A stretch of 64,000 bases of DNA from Tetrahymena thermophila SB210 (taxonomy: Eukaryota > Ciliophora > Oligohymenophorea > Hymenostomatida > Tetrahymenidae). The stretch spans positions 186,001 through 250,000 of the forward strand of contig NW_002476433.1 in NCBI RefSeq assembly GCF_000189635.1. The letters run 5' to 3'. The first letter of the stretch is position 1, and each line of letters begins with the position of its first letter. Positions 41,657 to 64,000 of the stretch are shown piece by piece. A program made the translations under genes and the position numbers. Under the pieces are notes generated by a model. The model searched no databases. It saw nothing but the letters and a program-made list of their open reading frames with translations, and was not told the origin of the DNA.

Positions 41657-44600
41657 ATGTTCCTTTTAAAAACATGTATCATTGTAATAATTTTATTGAT
41701 ATAAATATACAGAAGCGAGCAATATAGTCCTAGTAAAATATTTGATAAAAACTTTATCTTTGACTGCGATTAAAGTATAACTTAATAACTTTCATAATAG
41801 AATGTATAGTTTAATTGTTTGAACAATGATGTTTTCATTTAGAATCAAAATTAAGTAGAGTTTAGTTTGACGATTTAAAATGAGACTATAAACTCTTCAA
41901 TTAGAATTGAAGACATAAATTATGTCAAAATTAATTGTATTATTATTAATAGCGTTTAATTAAATAATAAGTCTACCTTTATTAAGATTCAAAGAATATA
42001 GTGGCTCTAAATTTAATAACTCAATATCAATCATATTAAATAAGCAGATATATTTAAGCTAGTTTTATTTACTAGAGATATTGTTAACTTCGAAATAAAT
42101 TAAATGCATTTGAGTAATCAAATAAAATATCTAAAAGAATCAACATACTTAACATTAAATTCTGAAATATTAGAAATAGTAGATATTCAACTACAAAATT
42201 TTATTGAGTTTAGTTTAGAACTAATAGGTAAAAAATTACTGAAAATAGGAAACATTACTTTATTCGACTCAAGATATTTAAACATAACTTACTATTCAGG
42301 TTTTTAACTTATTTCTTCATAATAAATTATTGTGGATTAGATTAATATTTAGATAGATGCTTTAGAAAGTTAGAACTTATATTTGATTGATTTTAAAATT
42401 GCGAATTAGGAAATTTAAAAAGCAAGTATAGATATTGGATTAATAATATTTAAAACTCATCATATAAATTCTTATTTAATTGGAGAATTGAAATTTTATG
42501 GTGATTAAAACTCATAGTAGTCTATCGATAGTAGTTAAAAACAAATAGTTAATATAGGATAAATATCTTATAAATAATAGTCTCTATAATCTTATTTAAA
42601 AATTTAACTCTCTAATATATATGAATGCAACATAGGCAGAGTAGAAATTAATAATTTAAAAACTAATTTTTACCAAAAAGATGCCATTATTAACTTGTCT
42701 AAAGTTGAAAGATTTAAAATGAAATCACTTTATTTCTTGCAAAATTCAAAAATAGATGGAATGATATTTTTAGGAGGTGTAAAACATTTTGAAATAGAAG
42801 AAATAATTGTGCAACCATATAGTTTATTTTTATCAGATTTGATTAATTTATCTAATTGCTAACATATTTTAATTGGGAAAATTGTAGCTGAAAAAGCATA
42901 ATTTAATAAATATTTATTATTTCTTACATAAATAGACTAATTTGAATTAAATAATACAACAATTTTAAATACAAAATTTAGTTAAAAGTCACTTTTTTAA
43001 TTAAGTAATATACAAATTATCAGTTTAAATAGCAATTATTATTAAAAGATTCAAAGTTCTTAAAATCAATCAAGTATTTTTAAGATTGATAATACTGTAA
43101 ATTAGTCAGAGAAATATTATTTTTCTATTATAAATTTATTTGCTGATTTGGAGAATACTTAAAATCTATAATTTATTCTATCTCATTAAGTCTTTAAATA
43201 CTTTATTATTAAAGATTCTATATTTCTAAATGGGTCTTCTATTACTTTTGGAGGATGCATGTAGTTTGTTGTTCCTTAATTTGGAGATAGTAGCCAAATG
43301 TATATTTCAAACACAACATTTGGTTATTGCTAAAGTAAGTATCTTGGAGGAGCGGTATATGGTGTACAACTGATTTCAGCATAAAATTCTACCATATTTA
43401 ATTGTGAAAGCAGGATTGGTGGAGGACTCTATTTATATGGCAATGTCAATGTTCAAGAATTAAATAAAATAGATTTTTAAAATAATAAAGGTTTATTATT
43501 AAATGATAATTATAGCAATTAGATTTAAAAATTTATAGTTGAGGAAGCTTTAGAAGTATTTTCAATAGGTAAGGAACCACTTAAACTTATTCCTAATTAA
43601 AAATATTTATACCCTGGTTTGACTTATGTTTTCAGACTATCAATAGTAATTGACAATAAAAAATATGACTAATTTAATAGTTATAATTCTTTTGGAAATA
43701 TATATTCTTTCTTATTTTAACCTTCTGAAAATTATCTATCGTCAACATAAGCAGGGTTAGAAGCAATGTATTATCCATACATTTTGTGGTAGGCAACTAA
43801 TATTGATTTTTTTGGAAATGAAAATACCTAATTAAAGCTCGAAACAGTTATTTCGAGTTTATAATTTTTTTACTTAAATTAAGAATATTCCATTTAAAAT
43901 GGATGCAAAGATCAAGGTATGGAAAAAATATTTATTAGTATGTATTAAAATAGATTTTCATGCTAATATTGTGATAATATGAAAGTTGGTTATTCATCTA
44001 CTTGCTAAATATGTCACTAAGACTACTTTAAAGAATGTTATGCTAATTACTCAAATTTAAGAGAATCATATTGGAGATCGAGCTATTCTGTGAATCCTTC
44101 TGATATAGAATATTGCTCCTTAAATCCTTCTAGTTGTCTAGGAGGTAAATACATTTTAATTAACAAAACAAAAATTTTATTATTATTAGACAAAAATTTT
44201 ATTTACTTTTTTTATTGATTAATTAAGGTGTTGGCATATAGAATGAGCTATGTCATGAAGGCCATGTTGGAGCTTAATGCCTAGATTGCGATATTAAAGG
44301 AATTTACTGGGATGATTAATATGCCTCTTAGGGTGTATTTTAATGTACTAAATGCAGTTCTATTGAATCAAATACAGCTAAGATAATAGTTTTAATAGTT
44401 TTCCTTATTATCAGTTTAGTAATAATTATGGTTTCTACATTTAGAAGATAATAAAACTTACTTTATGCCTTTTATCTATCTAAATTGGGTGTTTTCTTTA
44501 TAGGAAGAACTCTGAGCAAAAGGAGTCTTACTTCTGTTTATGTGAAAATATTCATTTTTCATATTTCTATATACATGATCTCTAACTATCTTAGCAATGT

Positions 44601-45699
44601 AGATATAATTTCTTCAATTTCTTCTGTCTAGCTACTCATTTATAACCCAATAAATTCGCCTTAAATTTCGTTAAACTGCTTCCTTGCTCATTTTCAGACT
44701 GAATCAACAGGAATAGGATTTTTGAATGTCTTATTTACATTTTTAATTCCAATTATTCTCTGCAACTTAATCCTTATGCTTTTAGGTTTGCTTTTATTAA
44801 TTAAAAAAATATCATTTAAGAAATCACTATATGTGGCAAATCTCTCTTTTATTTACATATTTATTACAGTTTTTTATTCTCTTCTTTTAGAAAACTTACT
44901 ATCTAGCTTTTTCTGTCTGAAATTAGATAAAGATAAGTCATATTCTTAGATAGATCTTAGCCTTTAGTGCGGTGTCTCAGATGAACTTTATAAAATTCGA
45001 GTATTAAGTTTGATTATCCTATGCTTGTTCTAAATAATTTTCCCACTATTTACATTTTATAGGCTAATATAATCTAAGAATAAACTATAAAAGGTTTAAG
45101 TGATGTTTTCTTATGGTTTTTTATTTAATGAATATAAGAGTAAGTATTATTATTGGGAATTTGTAAGATTTGTAGTTAAAACAATATTAGTTATTCTAAA
45201 AATATCTTTAAAGTAATATGCCTTAATTACAGGAGTTTTGACTCAGCTTTTACTGATTTTTTACCTAGTAGCTTTGCAAGCTTATAAGCCATTCATTTCT
45301 CTTTTTTTAAATAAGCTTGAAAAAGTATCTGTAATAATATCAATTTTATTATTGAGTTCAACAGTTATTTTTAATTAATTTAGCATAAAATAAAATTAAT
45401 CAGCAGAAAAAATCTTTAGTTAACTCTTCTTTTTAATTACATAACTTTTAAATTTATTATTTTGCGCTTATAGCATTTGGATTATACTGACATCTTTCAT
45501 AGAGCAAAAAATATCTAAGTTCAAAAGATTTTTAAAAAAACTGAGATTATACAAATATGATAAAAAACCTTCTTCGCTGATCAATTTAAATAGAAATGTT
45601 AAAAAGTTAATCTCATGTGTAAATAAATTGAGATTTGAATAAGAAAAAGTTAATTAAGAAGCCATACCTCTCTATTTTGAATAATATAAAGAATAATGA
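41657..45699 (+). CDS. Large secreted/multi-pass membrane protein, 1319 aa
   Basis: Exons 41657-44144 and 44228-45699, with an 83-nt intron at a Gly codon; 3960 nt in frame with a TGA stop. A signal peptide is clear (MFLLKTCIIVIILLIQIYRS). Residues about 25-760 are asparagine/isoleucine-rich repeats with short hydrophobic strands, as in beta-helix-like ectodomains. A cysteine-rich stretch follows at about 780-875 (CQYCDNM, CQICHQDYFKEC, CLDCDIKG, CTKCSS). At least six hydrophobic segments begin at about 881 (IIVLIVFLIISLVIIMV). The tail is short and basic, ending EQYKEQ. The plan fits a ciliate family of unnamed surface/membrane proteins; the role is unknown. The start at 41657, not the internal Met at 42104, is chosen because it alone gives the signal peptide and the upstream frame is open. 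A truncated copy lies at 36523. Confidence 0.85.
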
Positions 45700-53661: not shown

Positions 53662-56600
53662 TCAAATATCCTTGATTAAATGTTATTTGAATCCAGGTTT
53701 AACATACTCAGTAAGCTTTTCAGCGTAGTATTCGTGTCTACCTGTCATAGTGAAACCCCACTTATCTTTAATTTATTAGCAAAGGTTAAGATCAACTTCG
53801 ACAACAAGGAGACCATCTCTAGTTCTAGAAAGACCTGGAGTTCTACTACCATCAGGAGCAGCAACATATGAAGAACCATAGAAGTGACCGAAGTCGTTTC
53901 TAGCTTAACCACCATCACCACTAGTGAATTTATTAGGGAAGATTTCAGTTCCAACACGGTTAATTCCTACAGAGAAATAGTGATTGGCAATAGCAGCGTT
54001 TCTTGCTTCAATAGGCCACATAGGTTCAGAAAGACCACCAACAGTAGCAGATGGGTTGAAGACGATTTCAGCTCCATTCAATCCGAGTTATTACCAAGAA
54101 AGAGGATGATGTCTATCATAGCAAATGTTTACACCAATTTTACCAAATTCAGTTTCGAAAACAGGGTGACCAGTGTTACCTTCCATGTAGTAAGTAGATT
54201 CATTGAAATCTCCAACACGAGGGATATGATTCTTTCTATGTTTACCAAGGAACTTACCCTTGCTAGAAATAACAACAGTAGTGTTGTAAATTGTGCCTCT
54301 TTCGTCGTCACGTTCCAAAATAGAGTTGACAATTACCATATTATATTTTCTAGCTAATTCTTAAAGCATTTATGTGGTAGGACCATGCTCAGCAGATTCA
54401 GCTAGTTCAATCCATGGGTATTTTTCACGAGTAGCTACAAAGAAGGGGCAAGTCCATAATTCTTGGAAACAAATAACATTAACTCCACTATGGTAAGCTG
54501 CTTCAACTACCTTCTTATTATAATCATGTATTGCTTATCTTTATTCTTAAATTGGTTGACTTGGAGAAGCTTTGTAAATATTTTATACAGCGCCAATACG
54601 AACTAATCTTGGTGGTCTTGTTTATTCTTTATTTGCTTACACTCTGAAACCTTTAATTTCAAAGTTGTGTTCTAAGGCCATTTCATGAGTTCTTAAAGCA
54701 AGATCAAGAGGTTTGTAGTTTTATCCATATAAAATTCTATAGACTTCACTACGCACCTTCTCAGGTATATAAGTATCGAAAGCCTATTCAACTGAGTTCA
54801 ACTCTTTAGTATTTTTGCAGAAAATTTCACTATCTTAAGTGCTGCATGAAGAGTGATTATGGTGATGATGATTATTATTGTTGTTGTGTTTTAATTGATT
54901 TTATAAAGATTAAATAGTAGAATTAGCAATGTTTAATTCAGTTTAGAGTTTTTGGATTTAGAATTCAGGAGTTTCCTAGTTAACTGATCTATCTATTATT
55001 TTAGTTGAGTAGTCTCTTTCTTATTCAAGATACTTAGATCTTTCATAAGGATAACCAAATGCAGTTCTGCCTATGTATTTTCCTGAACCCTTATGAGGAA
55101 TAAATGTATCATTCTCCCAAACAACATTACCTGCAGCAATTGTAGTATGAGATTTACCAGTTACACACATTCCTTCAAAAACATTATGGTCATGAGCATG
55201 GTGATGAGTTTTAGCAGATATAGTATGAGTTCTTTCAGGATCCCAAACTACAATATCTGCATCACTACCTTCTTAAATTCTACCTTTTTGAGGATACACA
55301 TTGAATATTTAAGCTGCTTGAGTGGAAGTTACTCTAACGAAATCCATAGGAGTTAAAATTCCCTTTCTAACACCGTTATTCCAAACAATAGACATTCTAT
55401 CTTCAAGGCCATTGCATCCATTAGGAATCTTAGTGAAATCATTAATACCCTTCCTCTTTTAGGCTTCAGAGAAAGTACAATTATCAGTACCAACAGTATG
55501 AATAGAACCCATAGCAAGGTATTTCATCATTCTAATTTTGCATTCTGGATCCATTGATAAAGCAGGAGACATAACAGCACCAGCAGCTACATCCCAATTC
55601 TTATCTAAATAATGTCTGCCATCAATACCTTATAAATATGTAAAATATATTATTATTATTTTTGACAACAAATATAATTTGTATTTTAAATAGTAAATAT
55701 AAATGGATGGATTTTCGATTATTTATATTTATTAGGTAGAATTGAGTGTTTAATATTTGTAATATCAAGTATTTTGTTTTTTAATTAAAAATATTTGTTT
55801 GGAAATAAAATCTTGTTTGCCTTCTAATTTTATTTAATCTTGTAAAAAAATCAATTTTCTTTAACTTAAATCTTAATAATAAACAAAATTGAGGTAAATA
55901 TCAAAAAAATTTTAGATATCAAAATTTTTAGGGCTTGGAATGTATGTATGACTGGATTTTTTTCAAATTAAAAGAAGTAATCTATCTGATTTAGTAAAAG
56001 ATCAAAATAAATAAATAAATTGACACGTTTATTAGATATTTTTATGAAAATTAAATTAATTGAAAATTTTCTAAAAAGAGTGGGGAAATCTTTATTGAAA
56101 TCAAGTTAGAGAAAAATAACAAACAACTTTTTACGATCGACTGACTGAAAATAAATATAATCAAAGATACTTCTTTTAATCAGAAATTTGATTTTGCGAC
56201 GAAGGTGACGAGATTTTAATTTACAGCCAAAAATTGTAGAGAAAAAATTAAAAATAAGTCAGATTTTTAAAATCAAAGTTTTTATTTCATCTTTAACATA
56301 GCTTATTCAAAAATAAAAATGTTAAAGTGAGATTGTTTTTAAAGTTAGTTAGTTAATTAGTTTGCCTATTTAAGCTATTTATTTCTAATTTCAAAAACGT
56401 ATAATATTAATTCAATAATAAATTGTCTGCATTTAGGATTTATTAAATTATTTGTAATTGATCTCTCTAATCTTATTAAATTGTTATTAACCCACCTTTC
56501 TACCACATTGGCTAATAATAAACGAAGTATTTTTTTTGAATCTATATAGTTACCTAATGTTGAAGCGAGAGTCTCACCAAATACTTAGCAGCCTTTCTAT

Positions 56601-57409
56601 CTAGCTCTAATAACTTCCTCAGCAGCTTCTGTACCCATTAAATGAACTACATAAAGAGGAGTACCTATTTCGTTTGCAAAAACGATTGCTCTATGAGTTG
56701 CTTCGGCTTCTACATCCTTGCTTCTGCTAAGATAATGGCCTTCAGGTCCTGTAACGCCAGCTGCTAATATTTTTTTCTAGAGATGATCTATCAAATATCC
56801 ATTTTCTGCATGAACCATTGAAAGAGCACCTAATTCTTTACATCTTTCTAAGCATCTAATCATTTCGTCATCTGTTACCATCAATGAACCTTTATAAGCA
56901 AGGAAAAATTTGAAACTAACAACACCAAGCTTGACAAGTTCAGCCATTTCTTTTTCTACTTACTCACTCCACCAAGTAATGCAGCAATGTAAACCAAAAT
57001 CGTGATGAACCTTTGGATCAGCCCAAGCCCTCCACTATTCATAGGCTTTAAGTAGTGATTCACCTGGTTTAGGAACTATAAAATCTAATAAAAATGTGGT
57101 ACCACCAGCAGAGGTTGCACGAGTACCAGTATCAAAGCAATCTTAAGAAACGGTTCCCATGAAAGGCATTTGTAAATGAGAATGAGTCTCGATACCTCCT
57201 GGAATAACAAATTTGTTTGTTGCATCTATTATTTTAGAGCCTGCTAATGGTTCTAGACGACCAGTGGGAGCTATCTTTTAAATTTTTCCATCAACTACTT
57301 AAACATCAGCATCAAACTTACAGTCGTGGTTCACTACTGTACCCTTTTTAATGAATATGGGAGTCTTTTTTGTTGTGGAGAATTTTAACCTTCTGATACC
57401 AGCTAACAT
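53662..57409 (-). CDS. Bifunctional dihydropyrimidinase / beta-ureidopropionase fusion, 940 aa
   Basis: Exons 57409-56554 and 55628-53662 (925-nt intron at a Gly codon; 2823 nt in frame). Residues about 15-500 are dihydropyrimidinase: metal ligands His76 and His78 (GIETHSH), Lys173 for carboxylation (FFLAYKG), His200 (VHAENG), His256 (VVHLMG), Asp334 (GTDNCTF). A linker at about 505-560 has a short coiled coil and an Asn/His tract. Residues about 565-940 are a full-length beta-ureidopropionase of the nitrilase fold: Glu675 (CFQELWT), Lys751 (HRKNHIPR), Cys788 (NICYDRHHP). The two domains catalyse successive steps, dihydrouracil to N-carbamoyl-beta-alanine to beta-alanine. No stop or splice signal separates them. 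The N-terminus [13 protein letters not shown] is basic and may target mitochondria. All expected catalytic residues are present. Glutamine is often TAA/TAG, so standard-code frames break it up. Confidence 0.93.
55629..56553 (-). other. Long intron (925 nt) inside the dihydropyrimidinase domain
   Basis: It lies between the STLG and IDGRHY parts of the dihydropyrimidinase active domain; the joined reading matches the family (SLG.DG.HY). It is much longer than other introns in the right part of the window. A less AT-rich stretch at about 56130-56260 (GCGACGAAGGTGACGAGAT, CGATCGACTGACTGAAAA) could hide a small RNA, but I see no complete snoRNA signature. Confidence 0.6.
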
Positions 57410-58580
57410 TAATACCTACTTTTTAAAACAATTATCTTATTTGATTAACTTTATTATTTTTTGTTGATTTATTTGATTATTAATTTTGAAATATTTGGTG
57501 TCACTTTTAATATCCTCAAATTTTATATCATATTAATGATACAAATCAACAAACATATCCAATTATTAAAATCAAATAAATCTTTTTATAAGATTTAGAG
57601 GATTTAATAATAAATTTAATTTTTCAGTATTAATCTCAACATTTGTTCAGATATAATAAAGGTTTTCAGCTTTTTTTTTTTTTTCTTTTACGTTTTTTAT
57701 CTAAAGTTATTAGTATCCCATCCCGCTTGGTAATAAATAATATTGTATCTATGATAAAAAAATATAAATATATTAGGATATGATAAAACGTCTTTAATTA
57801 GAATAAAATATACTTTATATATTCATACCTTAAGAAATAACAAGTATATACTGAATAAAATTTCAACTAATATTAAAGAGATCAAATTTAAATAAAAAAG
57901 TTTTTCATATTTGGCCTTATAAAATGAGAAATTACATTTTTTCTTCTAAATACAATAAAATTTTGAAAATAGTAAAATTATTAAGAAGTACATTTTTTTG
58001 AATTGAACTAATTTTATATTTGAAATTGATAAAAATAAAAAGAATTTAAAATAATTCCTATTAGTTTATTAAAGTAAGCTATAGAACAAATAAAAGCTTT
58101 TGTATAATTAATAATTAAATAATAAAAAATATATTATTTTTTAATTTTATTTTCTCTCTTTCTCCTTTATTTATTTATTCAAAGTTGTGAGAAAAAAATA
58201 AAGGAGCAAACTATTTTGATTATTATAAAAATTACAAATTAATAATAATAATGTTTGTTATGATTTGTAATTGTTTACATTGAATCAAAAAAATTAAAAA
58301 AAATAGACAATACAGATATTATAGCTTGAAATTAAATAGTTTTCTATAAACAAATCGTTTAACTCAAATATTAATTATATTTAGAAACTAATTTACTTTT
58401 TGTGGTAATTAATCTCTGTCTTTTTTTTTGATTTTTTTATTTATTGAATTGTATGAGTTAATCATGTAAAGAAGATTAGAGGGATGATTTAATTTCTAGA
58501 AGGTTAGTTAGTTAGTTAGTTAATACTTATATTATAATATTGAATTATTTAAAATACAAAATACCACATATATTTTATAT
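57410..58580. promoter_or_regulatory. Intergenic region upstream of the fusion gene
   Basis: AT-rich DNA holding the presumed promoter of the fusion gene and the 3' flank of RWNMK copy I. It contains a GTTA run at about 58504-58522. No gene was seen. Confidence 0.45.
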
Positions 58581-59225
58581 TCAATTGCTTTTAATAATTG
58601 ATTTATTTTTTTTGTAATATCTTATTTTGCAACAATCTTCAGGATTTTGTATTTATTTAAGCAGTTGTTAAATAATAATTTAATGCTCATTTTTATTTGA
58701 GACTTTACTATTATCAAGCCAGAGTTTATTGATGTTTGTTAAATAGTATTCAAAAAGAGGTTTTATTTTAGACTTTTCAACTAAATTTTTAGCTTTCATA
58801 TTCCATCTTTTTCCTTCAGTTTTCAGACTAAATTTTAAAATTTTACACAACTAAGAGTGACCATAAGAGACTTTGCTAAGATAACAAAAAAACTGCTTTT
58901 GTTTTTCGTCTTCTTCATTTTCAATGTATCTTTAGAAGGATTTTAGTATATTTTTCATTATGTTTGAATTTTTACTATGAAAATGAGTTATAGTCTGATA
59001 GCTATCTGACTATATTCCTTGTGAATTCACTTAGCAAATTGAGATCTAAATCTACTCACGTTCTTTGGATTCTTTGTTTATTTATTAAATTTGAGTATTG
59101 CTTTTCTTAGTGTTTTACAACTCTTTTTCAGAAAAGTAGATTTCCACAATATCAAGGAATGCTTAGATTGAGAATTCATAATTATTATTTGTTTAAATTT
59201 AATTAGCATATGAGTCCATCTACAT
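58581..59225 (-). CDS. RWNMK-family protein, copy I, 214 aa (diverged)
   Basis: An intact 215-codon frame with a TGA stop. It is closest to copy H: FLDIVEIY, NIMKNILKSFQRYIENEED, SKVSYGHSQLCKILK, GKRWNMKAKNLVEKS, LFEYYLTNINKLWLDNSKV. The N-terminal and middle thirds are free to vary. It starts MQMDSYANQ; two Met codons lie three residues apart and either could be used. It is a dispersed older member of the family. Confidence 0.82.
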
Positions 59226-61713
59226 TTTTATTTAAAATGAAAGATTAGTTTTTTAGTAAAAAGTTTATTTTGATTTTGGTTTGATTTAAATATTTATATT
59301 CCAAATTCAATTCAATAATTTTTTTTCAAGATAAAAAACTTAAAAAGAATATTGATCTCTAATCATTAGATAAGTTGTTTATATCCTCAAATATTTATAA
59401 ATTTATTAATTTTTGTTATTAATTACTGCGCTACCTTTCGTTTCTTACCCGTGTTTTTTTTATTAATAATTTAACCATATTTTGAATATAATTTTTTTAA
59501 AAATGAATCATTTTTTAACATTTTTAATGGCGGTGAGAGATTATATAGTATATTTAAGTTTTTTTGTAAAAGTTTTATATGAAATAAATATTTAAAATAG
59601 ATTATTTTAAAATATTTAAATTATTTCTAATTGTATAAAAAGAACAGTTTATTTATTTAATAAATTCAATACTGTTAATTAAAGAAATTGTAAATAATTA
59701 TCTGTTTGTAAAAATTAAAAGTTATGAATGATTTAAATATTCGTAATTGATAAGAAACTTTTAAAAATAAATTGATTGATTATTCTAAATTTTATAATTA
59801 AATCATCTCCTTAAAAATTTTAATATACATATTTCTTTTCAATAATTAAAAATAGTTTACTTGAATAATTTTTATCCAAATTATATCTAGCTATTTTTTC
59901 ATTTCATTTATTATCTTAAATATATCGATTTTTGTAACAACAACAAAGATTTTTTATTCTTAAAGCTCTATTTTGTTTATCCATATATGGGCTAAGAGAA
60001 AGTGCATGAATAATTAAAAAAGTCTGCAATTATTTAAATATATTTCAATTAGGGGATAAATAATGATATTAGATAAAAATTAAGAGTTACCAAATAAATT
60101 ACTCTTCAAATAAAGTCAAAAAAATTAATCAACTCATCAATCAATCACTAATTTACTTTTTGCAAATTTTAAAATTTGTTTTCTAAAAATTATTTTTATT
60201 GTAATATAATTTTATAAATTAATTTCAAAGTTATCTAAATTTTTATAAATTGTTATGTTTGTTTAGTTAACTAAATTCAAATTGATATTTTTTATTTAAA
60301 GCAAGCAATAATAATACACCTAAAAATGAAATTATACGTTTAGTTAATATGTTAAACTTGAATAGATATTTTTAAATTATGTATAATGGTTAATAACGAT
60401 GACGCGTTCTTCTTTGAAAATATTTAAATAATCAAGCATCTTGATCTTATTTTAATTACGTAATTAATTAAGTTTTCATCAGATCAATAATTATCTTCTT
60501 ACTTAAAAATAAAATTGAATCAAAGCCTATTAATGTTTAAAATAAAAATTTAAAAATATTTTAAATAAATGGATGAGGAATTAATAAATTGATTATATAA
60601 ATAAATAAATGCACAAAATAATTCTTTTAAAATAAAAAAGAAATGATGAAAATTTTACTTCATATTAATAAAAATTCTTAACATTTTGTTAATAATTTAA
60701 TATTTAATTTATCTAGTAAATATTAATATTGCGTTTGATGTAAAACAACTATTAAAAATATTTTTTACTTGATTAAATAACCAAAAATTTTATAAAATTG
60801 ATTTCACTTAGCGATAAAAATAATATTATTCTGCGATGAATGAACCTATTGTTTTTCTAAAATACAAAATTTAAAGAGTTTAACTAAAAATTCAAGTATG
60901 ATAAAAAATATTAATACAGTTAAACAAGCATAGGTCATGTAAATGAACATTTTTAAAAGTAAAACAATAATAGAAATAAATTTTTAAAATAGGATACATA
61001 TAAAAAATGCTTTTCAAATACTTAAAATACTAAAATTTTCAAATTTTTTTTGGTAGAACTAAATTAATTTATAGTTCATATGTTATTTATTATATGTTTT
61101 ACTAAAATTTATAATAAAAAAATTAAATTAAACAAAGAGTTTAGTGTAGATTGGTTTATTTTTAATTAAAATATCACATAAAATATTCATTTATTTATAG
61201 TTTCCAATATTTATCAAAATATTTATAAACATTTTTTTATTTTTTATATTTTAAAGCAATATTCTCTTTCAATTTTTTTAATTAAAAAAATTAGTTAATA
61301 CTTATGATTTAAATTTGATTTAAGATTCTTACGATTAATCTTAATATAAGAAAATTATCCAATAAAAATGGGAGTCACTTAATAAATGATAAAATATTTT
61401 AAAAATTTTAATAACAAAACACAAAAATTATATTTTTTATTATTCTTTGAAGTTACATCTGAAAAATATTTTGTTTTATTAAATGCATGGACAACAAACC
61501 AAGCTTTTTGCTTATTTTAACCTATATTAAGCTTTTAGGTTAGGCAAGCAAATTAAGAAATATCAGTATTTTGAGAGATAAGATTATGAAAAATTATTAT
61601 ACAAGACAATATAAAGATAGATTTAATTTAAATTAAAAATATAAACTAAGATATAAAAATTATTTGACAAATAAAGCACTTAGCTTATTAATAAAACTAA
61701 TAAAAGCATTGCT
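59226..61713. other. AT-rich intergenic DNA
   Basis: About 2.5 kb without a supported gene on either strand, with many A/T homopolymers. Nothing else was recognised. Confidence 0.5.
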
Positions 61714-62340
61714 TCACTCTAATTTTTTAATTATAGATTTTTTTTTATGATAATATTTGATTACTTAACATTCTTCTGGATTTTATATGTATTTTATAAT
61801 AATTTTAACAGCTTCTTCATGCGATTCTCGATTAGAAACTTTGCTATGATTTAGCCAGTAGATGTCTATATTTAAAAGATAATGTTCAAACAAAGGTTTT
61901 AGAATAGATTTCTCAATTATATTTTTAAGTTTCAGGTTCCATCTTTTTCCATTTACTTTCAGACTACATTTTATATATTTACTTAGCGAATTATAGCTGT
62001 AAGAAACATTAGCTAATTTACAGTAAAGCTTTTAATTTTCTTGATCCTTTTCATTTTCAATAAATCTTTGAAAAGATTTTAAAATATTTTTTATTAAATT
62101 TGAATTCTTAGTATGAAAAATAGTTTCTTTATTTTTAATCTACTACCCTAATTAATTATCGTATATTCCTTGTATTTCAGTATTTTCAAATAGTCTATTA
62201 GTATTTTGAGATATTTATTCAGAAGGAGTTATCTAATTAGAAGTGTAGAATTAAGCAATTTCAAGAAATAATTTAATAGAAAAACTTTAATCTTGTTAAA
62301 TTATTTGTTCTTAATTGTCCTATTTCTTTAATATTTACAT
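61714..62340 (-). CDS. RWNMK-family protein, copy J, 208 aa (most diverged)
   Basis: An intact 209-codon frame with TGA. The core is still clear: HTKNSNLIKNILKSFQRFIE, CKLANVSYSYNSLSKYIK, GKRWNLKLKNIIEKS, LFEHYLLNIDIYWLNHSKV, KYYHKKKSIIKK. Several positions constant in A-I differ here, including loss of the Cys in the LCKF block. It is the member farthest from the duplicated field and probably the oldest branch in the window. Confidence 0.82.
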
Positions 62341-64000
62341 TTTTAAACAGATATTTTTGATTTATGATTTAATTAATTTCTTATTTATTATTTGATTATA
62401 CAAATAAAAAATTAATCATGGGAATTTATACAAATATTATACATAATTTGCTATTTGAGTCTAAGTCTTATTTATCACAAAAAGTGAAGGTTCTTTAAAC
62501 GTTTACACTTTTTTCTTTTTATTAAAAAAAATTACAAATAAAATATAATGATTAATCATTTTAAATTTATGATTATTGTATTTATTTAATTTATTGATTC
62601 ATCTTATGTTTGTTTACTTACTTACTCTCTTTTGTGTTTATTCTAAAAAATTACAAATAAAATATAAGGGTTAGTTTTTTAAATTTCAGGTTATCTTATA
62701 TGTATGTTTAATGAATGGTTGATTCTTCTAACTGTAAAATTAAATTAGTACTGTCAAATTAAAATTAATTTAATTTTCACTTATGAATTGAGAAATATTA
62801 AAATATTTACAGAAATAATATTTTGATTTTATTAAATATTATATTAAGAATATTACTAATATTGCTATATCAGTTTTAATTGGATTCCATTAAAGTATCA
62901 AGTAATTAATTATTTAAACTCAGAGTATATGATATGAAAAGTTTTCTAATAAAATACAAAGACTTTCAAAAAAGAAAATTGCAACCCTTTTCATATTTTC
63001 ATTTCAATAACTCTTTTTACTTAAAATCATTTTTTTCCTTTTTTGCAATTTTATTAAATACTAATTTTTATATTAATGCTTTCAATAATTTAAATTATTC
63101 AGTTATATAATAAATACAAGATGAAATAAAATTAATGCGTCATATTTAAAAGTAAAAACCTTTTTAATTCTGATGTAAATCTAAGTGATAATAATGAAAT
63201 AACCATTAAATCTTGTTTCAAAAAAAACTTAATATTTTGGTTGATAAAATAAAAACATAGTTTAAAAATGCTTTAATAGTATTTTAAACGAACAAAATTT
63301 ATGTAACTTCTTAAAAAAATATTTTAATATCATGCTTGCATACAAAATTTCAATTATGTTTGTTTAACTAATTCGCTTTATACCACTAATTAAAGTTATT
63401 CTTTGATAATCTTTAAATTTTTAATATTTGCTTGCCACTAATTAAACATCTGAAAAACTTATATTTATCAATTTCTGCTTTTTTTGGGGAAAGAATTTCT
63501 TTTTTCTTCATTTCTTCCTTTCTAATAATATACAATAGCCCGAGCTATTACAATTTTTTCATAACTTTAGAAACTCATAAAGAATGAAAAATATTCATTA
63601 TTTAAATTAGCTCCTTAGATCCTTACCTCATCTTTTTTAATTAGAAATCCAAGCAACCAATTAATCATAAAATTTTTTAGATTAAGTAAATAATTCAAAA
63701 TTTAATAAGATAAATCTATCTATTCAGAATTTTTAAAATGCCTTATTGAGTTTTGCCAAAATGTATTTGAAAAAGTAGCATTTTAAAATTGAATAAAATT
63801 GTTTTCTTACATAAATTAATAAGAAATTTGATAATTTATTATCTATTAGATTTAGTTTGTTGTATTTTACCAAATCAATGTATTTTTGACATAAATATTA
63901 TTAATTATTATCATTATTATTTACTAATAAATTAAAAAATAGTTAGATGAAACATCATAACAGCTTAATTTCATTATATATAAGATGAATTATTCAAACA
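62341..64000. other. AT-rich DNA to the window end
   Basis: It holds the 5' flank of copy J and then AT-rich sequence. I see no coding frame of convincing length and no repeat shared with the rest of the window. A gene may begin beyond the right edge. Confidence 0.45.

Follow-up and report, generated by a model that had tools for sequence, protein, structure and literature searches.

A single Tetrahymena thermophila gene joins predicted dihydropyrimidinase and beta-ureidopropionase enzymes in one reading frame

Introduction

Dihydropyrimidinase (DHP) and beta-ureidopropionase (bUP) act at consecutive steps in the breakdown of uracil and thymine. The metal centre of DHP consists of four histidines, one aspartate, and one lysine that can be carboxylated, and the known DHPs are described as tetramers, with the exception of the pseudomonal ones (PMC5832032). 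Human bUP carries a catalytic tetrad of Glu, Lys, Glu, and Cys, and functions only in assemblies larger than dimers (PMC10741476). The same study places H173 and H307 of the human enzyme at the interface between dimers, describes both as strictly conserved, and makes the case that assembly requires the two to be protonated; Ala and Asn mutants of either histidine are inactive dimers (PMC10741476).

Fused enzymes of one pathway are a known kind of protein, and several have been described in Tetrahymena. Table 1 of a genome-wide survey of T. thermophila fusions covers 27 families, none of which is a DHP-bUP fusion (PMC3143110). Among the titles and abstract openings listed in literature searches, none reports a natural fusion of these two enzymes; protein databases may well already carry a gene model of it. 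Here we describe such a gene in a 64,000-nucleotide stretch of the T. thermophila SB210 genome (NW_002476433.1, positions 186,001 to 250,000), hereafter the window.

Results

Gene structure

Under the ciliate genetic code (code 6), one 940-residue protein is read from the minus strand of the window between 57409 and 53662 once a single intron is spliced out (Table 1). An earlier note, made from the letters of this DNA, had described one uninterrupted reading of 940 codons with one intron, and its coordinates were reproduced exactly. The 940 codons are followed by a TGA stop, and Gln is read from 29 TAA and five TAG codons. When four acceptor offsets were tried, one gave the 940-residue frame, while the rest stopped after 287, 318, and 319 residues; homology to known DHPs crosses the chosen splice without a gap. 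By a codon-usage score trained on the DPD gene of the same genome, the intron looks non-coding whichever of the strand's three frames is taken (-0.56 to -0.63 per codon). GC content is 36% in the coding part and 5-28% in 120-bp windows of the flanking DNA. The first 20 residues of the protein include five Arg or Lys and no Asp or Glu. With a helical moment of at most 0.47, the N-terminus is unremarkable against the protein as a whole (mean 0.27, SD 0.14), and a mitochondrial location of the fusion protein is only a lead.

Table 1. Coordinates of the fusion gene and its parts in the window.
Feature	Position	Strand	Evidence
ATG start of the fusion gene	57409	-	spliced translation
Exon 1: codons 1-285 plus one base of codon 286; basic extension of 16 residues at the N-terminus, then first part of the DHP barrel	56554..57409	-	spliced translation, alignment
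Exon 1 residues: metal ligands H76, H78, K167, H200, H256; also Y172		-	alignment
Single intron, 925 bp, GT..AG, 20% GC; within the DHP domain, not between the enzymes	55629..56553	-	
Exon 2, including the TGA stop	55628-53662	-	spliced translation
Exon 2, first part: residues 286-486, remaining DHP, including metal ligand D334, S306, N358	55027..55628	-	
Linker, residues 487-556; in frame without TGA and without ATG, coding-like overall	54817..55026	-	
Predicted 31-residue helix, residues 506-536	54877..54969	-	structure model
Asn/His tract, 12 residues, 533-544; end of helix and start of disordered stretch	54853..54888	-	
bUP domain, residues 557-940 and stop	53662..54816	-	PDB match, alignment, model
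M602, first in-frame ATG after codon 439; 41 residues into the bUP homology	54679..54681	-	

Two further regions of the window were noted. Small paralogous predicted proteins are encoded at 58581-59225 and 61714-62403, both on the minus strand; BLASTP aligns them with 97 of 203 residues identical, and the segment ILKSFQR.IENE is common to both. At 41657-45699 on the plus strand, two long open reading frames overlap in different frames. Neither of the two has a Pfam match, and they are perhaps parts of one large intron-containing gene for a membrane protein.

The two enzyme domains

The earlier note had read this frame as two full enzymes with the catalytic residues of both families present, and both statements held, the second for the residues checked, when the protein was compared with sequence families and structures. 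The DHP domain is full length (residues 17-486) and is 52% identical (246/471) to PDB entry 2vr2, which we take to be the human enzyme. The top PDB match of this part of the protein is 2ftw, presumably from Dictyostelium, over residues 17-500 (E 2.4e-173). Pfam places Amidohydro_1 at residues 67-455. The NCBIfam dihydropyrimidinase model TIGR02033 scores 516.3 bits over residues 18-472, above its cut-off of 393.25, and a second model, PRK13404.1 (NF009941), stays below its own (347.3 against 647). Alignment to 2vr2 shows that all six metal ligands are kept (Table 1); among them is K167, the lysine that is carboxylated in DHP homologues.

The bUP domain is likewise full length. Its match to PDB bUP entries spans residues 561-939 (E 9.6e-159 for Drosophila 2vhh), and residues 561-938 align to residues 5-383 of 8pt4, which we assume to be human bUP, with 226 of 378 positions identical (60%). 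Pfam finds CN_hydrolase at residues 650-906. A structure model of linker and bUP together, built from 33 rows and with a mean pLDDT of 79.4, reached a TM-score of 0.93 to 8pt4 by target length; a model of the whole exon-2 product, built from 14 rows, had a mean pLDDT of 43.8 and was not used. The catalytic residues E675, K751, E762, and C788 align with human E119, K196, E207, and C233, and F205 (human bUP position) is also kept.

Genome context

The genome was searched as a 101-Mb assembly of 445 contigs, with the window on contig C115. Telomerase exons on C60 are identical to a PDB TERT chain (6d6v), presumably that of T. thermophila, over the coding parts that align, except for residues that look like intron read-through, which makes T. 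thermophila the very probable source. The whole fusion protein matched its own two exons in the assembly and gave three weak matches besides (E 2.3e-13, 1.1e-6, and 2.7e-5). No second DHP or bUP was found when the best candidates in this assembly, which may be incomplete, were scored exon by exon. Of the three weak matches, two are other CN hydrolases and one resembles allantoinase, in each case by a best NCBIfam model that stays below its cut-off. For the CN hydrolases on C173 and C332 these models are deaminated glutathione amidase and N-carbamoylputrescine amidase; on C65 the likeness to allantoinase lies in the C-terminal half. Matches to PF01979 on C398, C428, C179, and C184 and to PF00795 on C309 and C198 include none that hits the fusion protein at an E of 0.001. 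The fusion gene is apparently the only copy of either enzyme in the genome. On C65, in one open frame (L050:1894-4488, plus strand), a long low-complexity N-terminal stretch precedes the allantoinase-like C-terminal half, and the N-terminal half of an amidohydrolase was not matched in that frame.

DPD, which catalyses the step before DHP, is encoded separately in the same genome. Its gene on C217 (L049:343-3414, minus strand) is one long open frame of 1023 residues from the chosen ATG. The Pfam domains Fer4_20, DHO_dh, and Fer4_21 are as expected for DPD, and the best match is 1gt8 (E 4.1e-246); the best NCBIfam model, that of bacterial PreA, scores 308.6, below its curated cut-off of 335. DPD and the fusion protein together thus appear to cover the whole route from uracil to beta-alanine in two polypeptides. 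The N-terminus of DPD carries a basic stretch with a helical moment peak of 0.74, stronger than that of the fusion protein, and offers a lead towards an organellar location.

Departures in the beta-ureidopropionase domain

When bacterial and archaeal genomes were scanned for relatives of the bUP domain, 28 loci with 57-62% identity emerged, and the catalytic tetrad is identical in all of them. At the positions of the human interface histidines H173 and H307, however, the fusion protein has R729 and R862. Human and fly bUP have His at both positions, as do most of the bacterial relatives: position 173 is His in 26 and Asn in two, and position 307 is His in 25 and Lys in three. Conservation of the two histidines, which are a regulatory feature, is therefore high rather than strict. 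Moreover, the fusion protein differs at human positions 59, 120, 123, 126, 127, 128, 138, 235, 241, and 267, ten positions at which the 30 other sequences in the comparison do not vary. Six of these ten positions fall within human 120-138, after the catalytic Glu.

These changes could mean that bUP activity or specificity is altered. Taken further, they raise an alternative in which only DHP is catalytically competent in vivo, while the bUP part is structural or changed in its substrate, and Arg at both of the histidine positions that control assembly speaks for it together with the ten changed positions. Yet the four catalytic residues and F205 are kept in a domain with 60% identity to human bUP, and the genome search found no other bUP. 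In addition, all four of the more distant CN hydrolases compared (from six loci, L080-L085) have Arg at position 173, Pro at 307, and Asp at 235, which indicates that Arg 173 and Asp 235 are tolerated in the superfamily. We consider loss or change of the second activity unlikely on this balance, and favour a protein in which both enzymes work.

The joint between the enzymes

The joining segment had been described as containing a short coiled coil and an Asn/His tract, and a predicted helix and the tract were recovered in the linker. The predicted helix has heptad spacing as read by eye (I510, L513, L517, A520, I524, L527, L531), and its mean pLDDT is 84, 85, and 76 in three blocks covering residues 507-536. 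It runs into the Asn/His tract, and residues 538-559 are predicted to be disordered (pLDDT below 50).

Low-complexity linkers are accessible to proteases. The disordered stretch lends some weight to an alternative in which the single chain is cut in the linker, leaving two separate, equally abundant enzymes. By contrast, helix is predicted with fair confidence for much of the linker's first part, and we regard such cleavage as rather improbable.

By its score, the linker as a whole also resembles coding sequence. In the shared frame it scores 0.04 per codon, compared with -0.44 and -0.59 in the other frames; its second half (residues 520-556) scores -0.08, slightly negative as low-complexity sequence would be. 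None of 1260 windows of 70 codons drawn from 57500-64000 on both strands and in all frames, which take in two open reading frames that look coding, reached the linker score (highest -0.005), nor did any of 1052 windows when these two frames were left out and the intron was added (highest -0.25). The open frame itself is weak evidence, because 511 of 1798 comparable 70-codon stretches in 57500-64000 are also free of TGA, the only stop in code 6. Codons 440-601 were scanned in frame and contain neither TGA nor ATG. The earlier note had named an internal start as a possible refutation; the next Met, M602, lies within the bUP homology, so that translation of a full-length bUP cannot begin at any in-frame ATG. 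In sequence terms, it is the missing ATG and the in-frame coding score that carry the case for a fusion. An internal start at the joint was accordingly judged unlikely.

A cryptic intron at the joint was also considered. Codons 440-660 contain 489 GT..AG pairs of 40-500 bp, and for 163 of these the length is a multiple of three. From the letters alone, an intron that preserves the frame is therefore possible in the linker, and the fusion would remain if there were one. A cryptic intron at the joint was nevertheless judged unlikely.

The remaining alternative, two adjacent genes misread as one, with DHP ending in the linker region and bUP starting separately, gains from how often stretches of this length stay open under code 6 and from the survey in which 25 of 80 candidate Tetrahymena fusions were judged annotation artefacts, 24 of these 25 with an intron longer than 413 bp between the domains (PMC3143110), but it is very improbable here, since the bUP homology begins at residue 561 with no in-frame ATG between codons 439 and 602, the linker has a coding-like score in the frame common to both enzymes, the DHP part lacks a stop codon, and the long intron, the survey's warning sign, sits within DHP while the joint needs none.

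Bacterial relatives

Three of the 28 loci found with the bUP domain (L021, L025, and L039) have a separate DHP gene downstream of bUP in their flanks; the other 25 have no DHP match within the flanking DNA examined. A total of 64 bacterial loci were compared (L021-L048 and L056-L091); in many cases the first and the second set cover the same place, and several loci end early at contig ends. Of the 64, 12 loci, or nine distinct places, hold both a bUP or CN hydrolase gene and a DHP gene. The bUP or CN hydrolase gene comes first in 11 of the 12, and in L087 the two genes are on opposite strands. All eight distinct places with both genes on one strand thus have them in the order reverse to that of the fusion. 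None of the 12 is itself a fusion, because stops or frames separate the genes. Both matches lie in one frame in five of the 11 same-strand loci; in three of these five, a stop intervenes between the first gene and the DHP match, and in the other two, L082 and L089, which are the same place, the genes are separated by a stop and three more codons. At L089:1926-4250 (minus strand), the spacing of one stop and three codons before the DHP ATG makes a very tight operon of the two same-frame genes.

The exon-2 product was also searched against 282 genomes of one phylum, of which at least 148 have matches at an E of 1e-30 or better. Among the matches listed, none spans both domains. CN-hydrolase and DHP matches occur together on at least 16 contigs, each time on one strand with CN hydrolase first, and six loci with long open frames were taken from this search for a closer look. 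That bUP or CN hydrolase and DHP genes are neighbours in some bacteria fits a functional pair. The reverse gene order observed in these bacteria gives no support to an origin of the fusion from a bacterial operon.

Discussion

The fusion of DHP and bUP in one reading frame is confirmed. Family membership suggests that the two halves have DHP and bUP activities, and the bifunctionality of the protein is well supported by its sequence. Very probably, then, one gene encodes one bifunctional DHP-bUP protein, which completes the reductive pathway together with a separate DPD.

In such a protein, the N-terminal DHP would use its binuclear metal centre to open 5,6-dihydrouracil or dihydrothymine, giving N-carbamoyl-beta-alanine or N-carbamoyl-beta-aminoisobutyrate. 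The C-terminal bUP, with its nitrilase fold and Glu-Lys-Glu-Cys residues, would cleave both products to beta-alanine or beta-aminoisobutyrate, CO2, and NH3. Helix and flexible tract most likely tether a DHP tetramer to bUP dimers. Each DHP tetramer would present four tethered bUP chains, which could pair into dimers and higher assemblies, and the intermediate would arise close enough for the second active site to reach it. Tethering would thus provide a fixed 1:1 ratio and a high local concentration of the intermediate rather than a closed tunnel, which proximity of this kind would not need.

The two arginines invite a more tentative proposal, in which hard-wired assembly of the fused bUP replaces control by ligand and pH, through Arg at both His positions and tethering to DHP. 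A permanently charged Arg would stand in for a protonated His, which predicts that bUP assembles without substrate; it would then stay assembled and active without substrate as an allosteric activator, and the outcome would be a self-assembling two-step particle, possibly mitochondrial with DPD. We regard this proposal as rather doubtful, and the opposite, a bUP that is unable to assemble with Arg at these positions, is possible as well.

On the favoured reading of a bifunctional protein, the gene is a natural coupling of cyclic-amide hydrolysis with decarbamoylation on a single polypeptide, in a model organism that is amenable to genetics. Because it is the only source found of both activities, its role can be tested by removing one gene. 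The joining of a DHP, from a family with almost exclusively tetrameric known members (PMC5832032), to a bUP, whose human form depends on assembly beyond dimers (PMC10741476), bears on how oligomeric enzymes tolerate fusion, and it makes concrete the question of whether bUP allostery can be bypassed. The gene also bears on why a route for degrading pyrimidines is retained in ciliates, in which de novo synthesis of pyrimidines is reportedly absent (PMC3341644).

Compared with eukaryotic dihydropyrimidinase (EC 3.5.2.2; 2ftw, 2vr2), the N-terminal part of the fusion protein has the same full domain and metal ligands and, by homology, the same ring-opening chemistry. The stand-alone chains matched by this part have 521 and 541 residues, whereas in the fusion the DHP domain is followed by 70 residues of linker and then by an entire second enzyme. 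With eukaryotic beta-ureidopropionase (EC 3.5.1.6; 8pt4, 6ftq, and Drosophila 2vhh), the C-terminal part shares full length, N-terminal region, tetrad, and fold, but it lacks its own start codon and has Arg where the human enzyme has H173 and H307. That both enzymes occur as stand-alone PDB entries agrees with their being separate proteins in animals, plants, and fungi, as the earlier note had stated. The bacterial bUP or CN-hydrolase and DHP neighbours are the same kind of enzyme pair, but as separate genes, and in the opposite order wherever both lie on one strand. In Tetrahymena itself, FSF1 (FALDH-SFGH), MBD1 (mtnB-mtnD), and DTS1 (DHFR-TS) are also fusions within one pathway, each in a pathway other than the one described here (PMC3143110).
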